A stretch of DNA of 40,345 nt from the IMG/VR virus record IMGVR_UViG_3300036045_000034, positions 1 through 40,345 of that record. One strand, written 5' to 3'. The stretch is from a virus. Numbering within the stretch: position 1 is the stretch's first letter; each line of letters starts with the position of its first letter. Of the stretch, positions 6,769-40,345 are shown one piece after another. Below the pieces are notes generated by a model that was not told where the DNA came from, made no database searches, and saw only the letters and a program-made list of their open reading frames with translations. Position numbers and translations under genes: made by a program.

Positions 6769-7581
6769 ATGGACTTTCCTCGATCCCTCATAGGACTCAG
6801 CGGCGTGAACCACTACCCGCGCCACATCGGCGACTACCTCAAGAAAACGGTCGGTCTATCCATGGTTCAGGACGGCGCCTACAACCGGGCAATCGACTGG
6901 TACTACTCGCACGAGAAGCCGCTGCCCCGCAAGCCCGACGTCTACGGCGAATTGCGCTGCCTCTCGAAGGCTGACCGCGATGCTGTCGACGTGGTGCTGT
7001 CGCGGTATTTCAGAGAGGGTGAGGACGGCTATCGTCACGAGCGGTGCGACGAAGAGGTCGCGAAGTACCGCGAGAAGTCGGCCAAGGCGGCCACCAGCGC
7101 TTCGGCTCGGTGGGGTGCGAACGCAATGCGAACGCATCCGCCGCCGGATAGCGAACGCAATGCGAACGCAGTGCCAACGCAATGCGAAGGCAATGCTAGC
7201 CAAGAGCCAATAGCCAGTAACCAAGAAAAACAGGAAGGGAGAGAGCAGCGTGAACCCCGTTCCGCGCGGGCGCGCGGCAGCAGGCTCAACCCCGCCTGGG
7301 AATTGCCCGAGGACTGGGGCTTGTGGGCCATGCAGGAGCGTGGCTGGACCGTCCAGGAAGCACGGCGTGTCGCGGCCGAGTTCCGCGACCACTGGCTCGG
7401 CAAAGGCGAGTCCCGGGCCGATTGGCTGGCCACCTGGCGCAACTGGGTACGGCGCGAGCGCAGACCGCACGGGGTGACGAAGACGTCCGAGCGCGAGCGC
7501 ATCGCCGGCGAAATCTACGGAGAGCAGGATGAACGACGTGACGAGCATGTCATCGACGGCGAAGCGCAACGGCTCGCCTGA
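6769..7581 (+). CDS. DUF1376-type replication initiation protein (lambda O analogue)
   Basis: A 270-residue protein. The N-terminal NHYPRHIGDYLKKT and YNRAIDWYYSHEKPLP match the DUF1376 family found beside phage helicase loaders. The C-terminal part (WELPEDWGLW, then VAAEFRDHWLGKG and WLATWRNWVRR) resembles the C-terminal segment of phage replication proteins that contacts the loader or helicase. The middle (residues about 115-160) is polar, low-complexity, and encoded by six 11-bp repeats, the arrangement of lambda O, where the origin lies inside the initiator gene. It overlaps the P-like gene by 53 bases. The initiator role is inferred from family and context. Confidence 0.75.
   Translation: MDFPRSLIGLSGVNHYPRHIGDYLKKTVGLSMVQDGAYNRAIDWYYSHEKPLPRKPDVYGELRCLSKADRDAVDVVLSRYFREGEDGYRHERCDEEVAKYREKSAKAATSASARWGANAMRTHPPPDSERNANAVPTQCEGNASQEPIASNQEKQEGREQREPRSARARGSRLNPAWELPEDWGLWAMQERGWTVQEARRVAAEFRDHWLGKGESRADWLATWRNWVRRERRPHGVTKTSERERIAGEIYGEQDERRDEHVIDGEAQRLA
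7116..7193 (+). repeat. Six 11-bp iterons, predicted replication origin
   Basis: Repeats of TGCGAACGCAA start at 7116, 7127, 7150, 7161, 7172 and 7183 (two, a 12-bp gap, then four), with one or two changes each. Each unit is itself nearly palindromic (TGCG/CGCA). The 11-bp period is not a multiple of three, so the encoded peptide is not repeated and selection must act on the DNA. An A-rich, G+C-poor stretch follows (about 7194-7240), as expected for a melting region. Direct observation; origin function inferred. Confidence 0.7.
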
Positions 7582-7915
7582 GGTTGTGGTCGACCGCCTG
7601 TTCGAGCGCCTGGCGGCGATGTACGGCCGCGCGTGGCTCGACATGTGGACCGGCGCCAACATGGGCAAGGTCAAGGCCGAATGGGCGCACAGCCTGCACG
7701 GCTTCGACCTCGAGACCATGCGCCTGGCGCTAGAATCGCTGAAGACCGAGGGCGTAAAGTTCCCACCTAACCTGCCCGAGTTCGTGCACCTCTGCCGGCA
7801 ATTCGTCCGCGCCGGCCCGCATCGCCTGGCGCTCGCAGCGCCGCGGTACGAGCCGCCCGAGAATGTGTTCGCGCGGCTGCGCAAGCAGCTCTACGGTCAG
7901 GACGACGCAGCATGA
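7529..7915 (+). CDS. Replication protein P-like helicase loader
   Basis: A 128-residue protein. The core VDRLFERLAAMYGRAWLDMW, then the WAHSLHGF segment and FPPNLPEFVHLCR, follows the pattern of the lambda P-family region that loads the host replicative helicase DnaB. It is shorter than lambda P (233 residues), keeping mainly the conserved core. It overlaps the DUF1376 gene by 53 bases, the usual O-P pairing, and its stop overlaps the next gene as ATGA. It is predicted to act at the iteron origin inside the upstream gene. Confidence 0.7.
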   Translation: MNDVTSMSSTAKRNGSPEVVVDRLFERLAAMYGRAWLDMWTGANMGKVKAEWAHSLHGFDLETMRLALESLKTEGVKFPPNLPEFVHLCRQFVRAGPHRLALAAPRYEPPENVFARLRKQLYGQDDAA

Positions 7916-9395: not shown

Positions 9396-9652
9396 GTGAT
9401 AAGCAACGCGCACGCGTGCTAACCATGGAAGAGGTAGGTGTACCGATTCTCGAGGCGCTGGGCATTGACTGTTTGGGCGGCGATCCGATTCTGTCGGCGA
9501 CGCTGCACATGCGTGGTGGTGGACTGCCGACGCTGCGCATTACGCGCCTAGTGTGTAAGGACGGCGAGCCCGATGATGTGGTGGCCGGGGCGTTCAAGAC
9601 CGCAGTGTCGCGGTATGAGCTAGTGCTGAAGGGCGCTCACGAGGACCGGTGA
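9392..9652 (+). CDS. Small protein between the two terminase genes
   Basis: An 86-residue protein coupled to both neighbours by 4-base overlaps. The sequence looks mostly beta-alpha with a central glycine/leucine stretch (HMRGGGLPTLRITRLV). No family is recognised. In lambda the two terminase genes are adjacent, so an inserted gene here is unusual. It could be a packaging accessory, but this is inference from position. Confidence 0.5.
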   Translation: MSDKQRARVLTMEEVGVPILEALGIDCLGGDPILSATLHMRGGGLPTLRITRLVCKDGEPDDVVAGAFKTAVSRYELVLKGAHEDR

Positions 9653-11634
9653 ACACGCTGCAGCCCAACGTCACCGCGGGGCTCGCTATTCTGCGGCCGC
9701 GGGTGGACTTGCGGCTGTCGCAATGGGCGGCGTCGCACTTCTACCTGTCGGCGGAGTCGTCGTACGTTGAGCAACGCTGGTCGGCGTACCCGTACCAGGT
9801 CGGCATTCTCGACTGCATCGGCAACGACGCGATCGAGGAGGTCGTGCTGCGGAAGTCGGCGCGGGTCGGCTACACGAAGATGCTGCTCGCCGCCATCGGC
9901 TACTTTGCCGAGCATCGCCGCCGCTCACAGGCGGTATGGCAGCCGACGGATGAGGATAGCGACGAGTTCGTGAAGACCGAGCTGGAGCCGATGCTGCGCG
10001 ACGTGCCGGCGGTGCAGGCGGTGTTCCCAGGGTTCAGCCAGCGCAACAAGGCGAACACGCTGCGGCAGAAGATATTCCTGGGCTCGATCCTGCACCTGCG
10101 CGGCGGGAAGGCGGCGAAGAACTACCGGCGGTTGAGCGTGTCGGTGGCGGCGATCGACGAAGTGGACGCGTTCGATGCGGACGTGGAGAGCGAGGGCTCG
10201 CCGGTCGCGCTCGCACGCAAGCGGGTGGAGGGCGCGACGTTCCCGAAGCTGATCATCGGCTCGACGCCGAAGACCAAGGGGCTCTCGCTCGTAGAAGCGC
10301 GCGAGGGCGCAGCGATCGTGCGCCTGACGTATCGCTCTCCTTGTCCGGCATGCGGCGAGCGACACGCGCTGCGCTGGGGTGGGCGCGATGAGCCGTACGG
10401 CATGAAGTGGACCGACCGTGACCCGGAGACGGTGCGCCAGCTCTGCGGGGCTTGTGGTGCGGTGTACACGCAGGCCGAGTACCTTGAGGCGTACCACGCC
10501 GGCCGCTGGGAGGCCGACGACGGGGCTTGGCTCGACCACGGTGGCGAGTTTCGCGATGCCGATGGCGCGGTGTTGCCGCCGCCGCGGTCGGTTGCGTTTT
10601 TCGTGTGGACGGCGAACTCGCCACAGACGACCTGGTCGCAGATCGTGCGCGAGTTCCTGTCGGCCAAGCGCAAGGCGGAAGCGGGCGACACCTCCGAGCT
10701 CAAGGCCTTCGTGAACACGACGCTGGGCGAGAGCTGGGAGGAGGGCGGCGAGTCAGTGGCGGCGGCGGCCCTGGCCGACCGCACGGAGCCGTACTCGCTG
10801 GGCACCGTGCCCGAGGGCGGGGTGGTGGTGACGATGGCGGTGGACGTGCAGCACGACCGGCTCGAGGTGCTGCAGAAAGCCTGGGGTGCGGGCGAGGAGT
10901 CCTGGCAAGTGGGTTACGAGGTGCTCGACGGGGATCCGTCGGCGCCGGCGGTGTGGGAGCGTCTGCGGGAGCTGATCGTGCGGCCGCTTACGCACGAGGG
11001 CGGGGCGCAGGTGCGGGTGCGGGCGTGCGCGATCGACAGCGGGGGCCACCACACGCACGAGGTCTACCAGTTCTGTCGCAGGCATCGGGGGCTGGTGCCG
11101 GGCGGGGTGTTCGCGGTCAAGGGGCACGCTACGCGCGGACGCCCGGTGATCGGGCCGCCGTCGTACGTGGACATCAACTGCCGCGGCGAGAAGACCCCGC
11201 GCGGCGCGCAATTGTGGCTGGTGGGCACCGATACCGCGAAGGATCTGATCCACGGGCGGCTGCGGGTGCGTCGGCCCGGTCCGGGATACGTGCACTTCTC
11301 CGACGAGCTGCCGGACGAATACTATGAGCAGTTGACCGCTGAGAAGCGCATCACGCGGCACGTGAAGGGGCGCATCGTACTCGAGTGGACCAAGCGGCCA
11401 GGGGATCGCAACGAAGCGCTCGACCTCGAAGTGTACGCGCTCGCCGCGGCGATGCGGCTGGGACTGAATCGCTGGCGCGCGGGCCGCTGGCAGCAGGAAA
11501 AAGCGCGTCTGATCGTCGCGAAACCGCCGGAATCCGCACCCATACCGCCCGGAATCGAGCCGGAAGCCGCGAAATCGGCGCCGGTGCCGCGCGCGCGTCC
11601 TCGCGGCGGTTTTGTGAGCCGGTGGCGGCAGTGA
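9649..11634 (+). CDS. Terminase large subunit (lambda gpA family)
   Basis: A 661-residue packaging motor and cutting enzyme. It has the gpA-type Walker A variant (RKSARVGYTK, residues 69-78), Walker B IDEVD (169-173), a zinc-binding pair CPAC (232-235) and CGAC (266-269), and a C-terminal nuclease region around 390-490 (MAVDVQHDRL, then AIDSGGHHTHEVY). Length is close to lambda gpA (641). The start is a GTG overlapping the previous gene. gpA-type enzymes usually make cohesive ends, so cos packaging is expected. All signature motifs look intact. Confidence 0.9.
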   Translation: MNTLQPNVTAGLAILRPRVDLRLSQWAASHFYLSAESSYVEQRWSAYPYQVGILDCIGNDAIEEVVLRKSARVGYTKMLLAAIGYFAEHRRRSQAVWQPTDEDSDEFVKTELEPMLRDVPAVQAVFPGFSQRNKANTLRQKIFLGSILHLRGGKAAKNYRRLSVSVAAIDEVDAFDADVESEGSPVALARKRVEGATFPKLIIGSTPKTKGLSLVEAREGAAIVRLTYRSPCPACGERHALRWGGRDEPYGMKWTDRDPETVRQLCGACGAVYTQAEYLEAYHAGRWEADDGAWLDHGGEFRDADGAVLPPPRSVAFFVWTANSPQTTWSQIVREFLSAKRKAEAGDTSELKAFVNTTLGESWEEGGESVAAAALADRTEPYSLGTVPEGGVVVTMAVDVQHDRLEVLQKAWGAGEESWQVGYEVLDGDPSAPAVWERLRELIVRPLTHEGGAQVRVRACAIDSGGHHTHEVYQFCRRHRGLVPGGVFAVKGHATRGRPVIGPPSYVDINCRGEKTPRGAQLWLVGTDTAKDLIHGRLRVRRPGPGYVHFSDELPDEYYEQLTAEKRITRHVKGRIVLEWTKRPGDRNEALDLEVYALAAAMRLGLNRWRAGRWQQEKARLIVAKPPESAPIPPGIEPEAAKSAPVPRARPRGGFVSRWRQ

Positions 11635-17744: not shown

Positions 17745-17929
17745 GCACCTGGGGGACTTCCTGGGGCACGTCCTGGGCTACGTCCTGGGATCGCGCCCCG
17801 GCGGTCTTTACCGGCTCCGCCTCGCGCACGTACCACGTCGTGCGCGAGGTCCGCACCTATTCGATCGTCGCTGAGGGCCGCGTGTATGCGGTGCCGCCCG
17901 AGGATCGCGCCGTGGAAATTGCCCCATGA
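17741..17929 (+). CDS. Small W-x-T-S-W repeat protein
   Basis: A 62-residue protein starting in ATGA overlap. Residues 4-17 are a short repeat WGTSWGTSWATSWD, encoded by a 12-bp DNA repeat, followed by a beta-rich tail (RTYHVVREVRTYSIVAEGRVYAV at about 29-51). Tiny tryptophan-repeat proteins like this occur with fibre genes in other phages, but their role is not known. The repeat could grow or shrink by slippage. Confidence 0.5.
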   Translation: MSTWGTSWGTSWATSWDRAPAVFTGSASRTYHVVREVRTYSIVAEGRVYAVPPEDRAVEIAP

Positions 17930-40309: not shown

Positions 40310-40345
40310 TCATTCGTTGTCCCCGTACCCGTCCCCGTACCCGTC
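40310..40345 (-). CDS. C-terminal end of a leftward gene entering from the right edge
   Basis: The last 11 codons of a gene read DGYGDGYGDNE then TGA, which overlaps the ATG of the next frame as ATGA. The Gly/Asp/Tyr repeat comes from a 12-bp DNA repeat that also ends the window. Nothing else can be said about the gene. Confidence 0.45.
   Translation of the reverse strand, partial: DGYGDGYGDNE
40319..40345. repeat. 12-bp direct repeat at the right edge
   Basis: GTCCCCGTACCC occurs twice in tandem (40319-40330, 40331-40342) and starts a third time at 40343. The window stops inside the repeat, which suggests that the sequence could not be extended through it, or that this is where a circular map was opened. 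Confidence 0.6.

Follow-up and report, generated by a model that had tools for sequence, protein, structure and literature searches.

The DUF1376 gene and its tandem repeats

What purpose is served by six near-identical 11-bp units packed into the coding sequence of one phage gene? The array lies in the window, a 40,345-bp viral record. The initial annotation assigned the repeats to a DUF1376-type gene with a P-like neighbour, and both assignments hold. The gene scores 74.3 bits for PF07120 against a curated cut-off of 30.1, and the neighbour matches the P-like helicase loaders of PHROGs, with a Pfam match only below the cut-off. The features of this region are as follows.

6769–7581, plus strand: DUF1376 initiator-like gene, 270 aa (PF07120, E 1e-20; phrog_3992 'primosomal protein', E 5e-37)
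6808–7062, plus strand: N-terminal winged-helix-like domain, residues 14–98 (Pfam bounds; AlphaFold2 domain model)
7075–7113, plus strand: basic segment KSAKAATSASARW at the end of the long helix, the proposed specificity segment (AlphaFold2 helix 91–122; segment–iteron association)
7116–7126, plus strand: iteron 1, TGCGAACGCAA, exact
7127–7137, plus strand: iteron 2, TGCGAACGCAT, one mismatch
7150–7160, plus strand: iteron 3, AGCGAACGCAA, one mismatch, preceded by a 12-bp gap
7161–7171, plus strand: iteron 4, TGCGAACGCAG, one mismatch
7172–7182, plus strand: iteron 5, TGCCAACGCAA, one mismatch
7183–7193, plus strand: iteron 6, TGCGAAGGCAA, one mismatch
7276–7458, plus strand: C-terminal helical domain of the RNWVR type (AlphaFold2 residues 170–230; exchangeable among relatives)
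7529–7915, plus strand: P-like helicase loader (phrog_109, E 8e-11; Phage_lambda_P, E 0.0014, below the Pfam cut-off)

All six units were found exactly at the starts first reported (7116, 7127, 7150, 7161, 7172 and 7183) and inside the ORF, as tandem iterons in the linker-coding part of an initiator-like gene. The description of TGCGAACGCAA as the repeated 11-mer applies strictly to the unit at 7116, the other five each carrying one substitution. Tandem Repeats Finder reports the array at 7116–7196 with a period of 11. Six near-identical 11-mers in 80 bp compare with at most three in 1000 synonymous-codon shuffles of the DUF1376 gene, and with a maximum of three per 80 bp in the remaining 2-kb tiles of the window. 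Further matches elsewhere in the window (up to two mismatches) were at chance level, with 19 found and 22 expected. The sites are dyad-like with a core of TGCG-AA-CGCA. Their split into two and four units around a 12-bp gap, singled out earlier as distinctive, is present here but is not common to the relatives, in which copy number and gaps vary. The gap itself (7138–7149, TCCGCCGCCGGA) has TCCG/CGGA arms resembling the TCCGAACGGAC iterons of locus L515, and is possibly a degenerate site. Two other repeats were seen in the record: a 12-bp tandem repeat, CCTGGGGCACGT, in 3.5 copies at 17748–17789, and GTCCCCGTACCC at the extreme end, 40319–40345.

In the AlphaFold2 model of the whole protein, helices and a small beta wing form the first domain, which is followed by a long helix (91–122), a linker predicted as disordered and a C-terminal domain that is again helical; the separate model of the N-terminal domain (pLDDT 89) consists of helices and a two-strand wing. 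The codons of the basic segment end 2 bp before iteron 1. Since the iterons start 2 bp past the W115 codon, it is the last part of the helix and then the disordered linker that they encode. A Pfam search at E values up to 0.01 gave only DUF1376 and no match to lambda O. By sequence, no solved structure was found for DUF1376, and Lin1244_N gave matches only at chance level. Foldseek comparison of full-length and domain models with the PDB returned nothing below E 1, many of the weak matches being winged helices; among predicted viral structures it matched DUF1376 proteins, Lin1244/Lin1753 proteins and, weakly, a 'replisome organizer'. Genes for a RusA-type resolvase, a DNA methylase and a helicase lie upstream of the DUF1376 gene, and relatives encode helicase loaders, DnaC, DnaB or a primase-helicase downstream.

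Selection on the DNA sequence

A search of genome contigs with the single protein gave no matches. When viral contigs were scanned with a DNA pattern of two units, at least 119 loci were returned, almost all of them in genes of the DUF1376 kind, at codon 100–125 and directly 3′ of '...KARESANKRW'. Because such a scan favours loci by their DNA, others were collected with N-terminal-domain profiles alone. In the first set collected with these profiles, which comprised 65 nonredundant DUF1376 linkers, self-similarity at a lag of 11 bp exceeded that of synonymous-codon shuffles with z = 20 for the RW/TGCG class and z = 12 for the GGRP class. In the enlarged set the excess was present in every class (z = 16.9 for RW, 11.0 for GGRP, 4.7 for AGKAS, 11.5 for unclassified genes and 10.0 for Lin1244_N).

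Of the 28 TGCG-type genes with two or more sites, 26 have them in more than one reading frame, and the same is true of 21/25 AACC-type and 8/10 GTTCAAC-type genes. As a repeated peptide is unable to yield multi-frame sites together with a lag-11 excess, the DNA and not the peptide is, from these comparisons of sequence, the selected element. This agrees with the initial annotation, which had argued for a selected DNA and an unrepeated peptide from the window alone; the check that it proposed on related phages came out in its favour, as relatives show the lag-11 excess at z ~17–20. It also bears on the view that the repeats serve the protein, encoding a disordered linker (ANAMRTHSEGNA) after an origin by slippage. 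AlphaFold2 does predict disorder in this region and the peptide ANAMRTHSEGNA recurs. Against this, a lag of 11 bp is no multiple of 3 and its excess is far above the synonymous-codon shuffles, sites are found in all three frames, and the equivalent place in the linker of other genes is taken by different 11-bp words (TTCAACGGACG in L297, GGGGGCGGATC in L298 and TCCGAACGGAC in L515). We regard this explanation as very improbable.

A position in the replication gene by happenstance would be expected if the sites were packaging or partition signals, and the terminase gene (9649–11634) is ~2.5 kb downstream. Across unrelated genomes, however, the repeats go with the replication gene and not with the terminase, and no partition gene adjoined the repeats among the genes scanned. 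Such a role is hardly credible.

Some further repeats were noted in these samples. Other direct repeats of 12 bp and longer are present in unclassified DUF1376 and Lin1244_N linkers (L498, L512/L517) and are probably further iteron classes. At L067:4965–4985 a two-unit match of the TGCGAACGCA type lies within the N-terminal domain itself. The peptide MRTHSxxIA, which two-unit DNA of the TGCGAACGCA type would encode, occurs in several other N-terminal domains (L026, L039).

An unstable 7-bp repeat element beside the iterons

The A-rich stretch described earlier after the iterons is real and more structured than was claimed. It holds a second element that the initial annotation missed.

7201–7228, plus strand: four 7-bp repeats, CAAGAGC/CAATAGC/CAGTAAC/CAAGAAA, the proposed unwinding element (sequence here; lag-7 excess in relatives, z 12–21)
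7196–7245, no strand assigned: the 50 bp with the lowest stability in the replication module; the plus strand is A-rich here

Between 5 and 9 kb no DNA is less stable than the 7196–7245 interval, which ranks near the 99.7th percentile of the window. DUF1376 genes carry 7-bp repeats directly after their iterons, for example CAATAAC/CAAGAAC or ACCAGAC, and the lag-7 excess in DUF1376 linkers is z = 21 for RW and z = 12 for GGRP. In Lin1244_N genes this region is instead A/G-rich, with a period of 5 bp. The least stable 50-mer of the gene begins within 130 bp after the segment in 49/74 DUF1376 genes, as compared with 13 expected. Iterons followed by low-stability repeats are, as far as sequence can indicate, the expected anatomy of binding sites plus an unwinding element.

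We also considered whether the 11-mers are operator sites inside the gene, bound by the DUF1376 protein or some other regulator to repress the replication operon or set the timing of its expression. The sites are dyad-like and near the operon start, and plasmid initiators are known to share sites between control and replication. This proposal explains neither the constant presence of low-stability 7-bp repeats next to the iterons, nor why these repeats come second, nor the Bartonella amplification data discussed below, and we consider it unlikely.

Co-variation of the basic segment with the iterons

In hundreds of related phages the iteron word and the short segment encoded beside it change in concert. 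Across DUF1376 and Lin1244_N genes, KAxxSAxxRW segments are paired with TGCGAACGCA, GGRPxK with AACCCA..CGGTT and AGKASxxR with GTTCAAC. Segment and iteron agreed in 65 of the 97 nonredundant genes carrying a recognised segment, where 10,000 permutations gave a mean of 24.7 and a maximum of 38; the motifs for both were defined on part of the scored data. The GTTCAAC rule predates the drawing of the later loci, so those loci serve as a partial hold-out. Agreement was complete for the GGRP segment with AACC/GGTT sites (25/25) and nearly so for AGKAS with GTTCAAC (10/11, including both Lin1244_N members). For the RW segment it was 28/59, this being the number of genes with two near-exact TGCG sites; the others mostly received no call, and some have degenerate sites. 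Cross-assignments between segment and iteron classes were almost absent among the 97 genes. A small hold-out of bacterial genomes, scored with frozen motif rules, gave 4 agreements, 8 genes without a call and no cross-assignments among segment-bearing genes. DUF1376 and Lin1244_N share the same pairing at ~10% identity over 63 aligned profile columns.

Named phages are found in each class: Pkon1 and phiAC-1 are of the TGCG type, Vibrio phage 1.183.O, BA3, Rb1, Ab105-1phi, CV-1-33 and H2 of the GGRP/AACC type, and Moraxella phage Mcat25 of the AGKAS/GTTCAAC type. In the Vibrio phage 1.183.O record, an annotated CRISPR spacer match (L309:2161–2190) coincides exactly with the AACCCAGTCGGTT iterons in its DUF1376 gene.

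Two other determinants of iteron class were examined. The initiator of P. aeruginosa F10 has the same C-terminal domain with a different N-terminus and no TGCG iterons, which argues that the iterons are independent of the C-terminal domain; C-terminal domains in general shuffle independently of iteron class. The idea that the class is fixed by N-terminal phylogeny was weakened, as the classes cluster on the N-terminal tree (17 changes versus 30 when shuffled) yet switch often, the tree itself being poorly resolved. The iteron sequence thus tracks the N-terminal domain and basic segment and not the C-terminal domain, and this fits putative binding by the encoded protein.

A further step would be that, throughout a DUF1376/Lin1244_N superfamily, the basic segment closing the DNA-binding domain reads the iterons encoded within the next ~100 bp of its own gene, with specificity and target forming one cassette that recombines between phages of different bacterial phyla. 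The result would be a readable code, in which KAxxSAxxRW specifies TGCGAACGCA, GGRPxK specifies AACC/GGTT, AGKASxxR specifies GTTCAAC and SARxAN specifies TCTGAAATCAGA. We place the odds of this reading, cassette and code together, at about even.

Proposed origin and its implications

The earlier proposal of an origin inside the replication gene is supported by the lag-11 periodicity, by the multi-frame sites and by the tracking of the N-terminal domain and basic segment by the iterons. We infer, with a probability of roughly 0.8, that 7116–7245 is a replication origin lying where the phage's own initiator gene encodes the linker, and that there the DUF1376 protein would bind, the repeats would open and helicase would be loaded. 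Several copies of the protein may bind the 11-bp iterons through the TGCG-AA-CGCA core, at about one site per helical turn, and the bound copies could then open the neighbouring low-stability 7-bp repeats. The C-terminal part and the P-like neighbour would load the host helicase at the opened repeats. The GC skew of the window has no clear switch at 7 kb, and a literature search for DUF1376 together with a replication origin, or for the 11-mer itself, found nothing relevant in the papers searched. Beyond the origin first proposed, the present analysis adds the 7-bp element and the segment–iteron rule, and extends the arrangement to two protein families.

Many phages and prophages encode DUF1376 or Lin1244_N proteins, two families for which no function is established, and the analysis offers a testable role for both as origin-binding initiators. 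Origins might then be located from sequence alone, and a rule is offered that relates a short protein segment to its DNA target. The same role would be suggested for a conserved gene at the Bartonella run-off-replication origin and for YdaU of the E. coli Rac prophage.

Comparison with known systems

In Bartonella, the amplification peak of run-off replication is close to or within the phage-cluster helicase (PMC2697382). The relevant passages of Guy et al. (2013) place the run-off-replication origin inside 'gene 4', upstream of the helicase, propose a lambda-O-like in-gene origin and note palindromes and a GC dip; those passages make no mention of DUF1376 and contain no iteron or segment rule (PMC3610622). 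B. massiliensis has a DUF1376 gene (50.6 bits; L524:3323–4537, minus strand) upstream of, and next to, a Toprim/DnaB_C helicase gene, and a YqaJ exonuclease gene is nearby. The module looks like the run-off-replication module, and by gene order the DUF1376 gene is presumably 'gene 4'. Unlike the gene studied here, this copy has no clear 11-bp array and is therefore stronger evidence for the initiator role than for the iteron rule.

The Rac prophage of E. coli has an active origin, oriJ (PMC3945230). Its YdaU is a DUF1376 protein and, as in the window, has a helicase-loader-like partner, the DnaC-like (IstB-type) ATPase YdaV. The ydaU gene contains five GTTCAAA/GTTGAA-type sites (gene nt 393–462; spacing 33, 12, 11 and 13), an iteron class different from that of the window. 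The position of oriJ relative to ydaU was not found in the papers searched.

Phage proteins of the Lin1244/Lin1753 N-terminal family (PF14297) are structural relatives (Foldseek E 9e-9) in which the same basic segment accompanies the same TGCGAACGCA iterons; their genes differ in the second repeat, which has a period of 5 bp and not the 7 bp of DUF1376.

The closest parallel in layout is the lambda origin in gene O. In both systems dyad-like sites are repeated in tandem where the initiator gene encodes its linker, DNA of low stability adjoins them (here 7196–7245), and a P-like helicase loader is encoded downstream of the initiator (here the phrog_109 match). The systems differ in the initiator, here a DUF1376 protein with no Pfam match to lambda O, and in the units, which are 11 bp here and ~18–19 bp in lambda. 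The adjoining 7-bp repeats, and an iteron sequence that changes with the adjacent basic segment, also set the present locus apart. The inference of an origin within the gene is well supported, and the locus would work like a lambda-type in-gene origin, with an initiator that has no detectable homology to lambda O.
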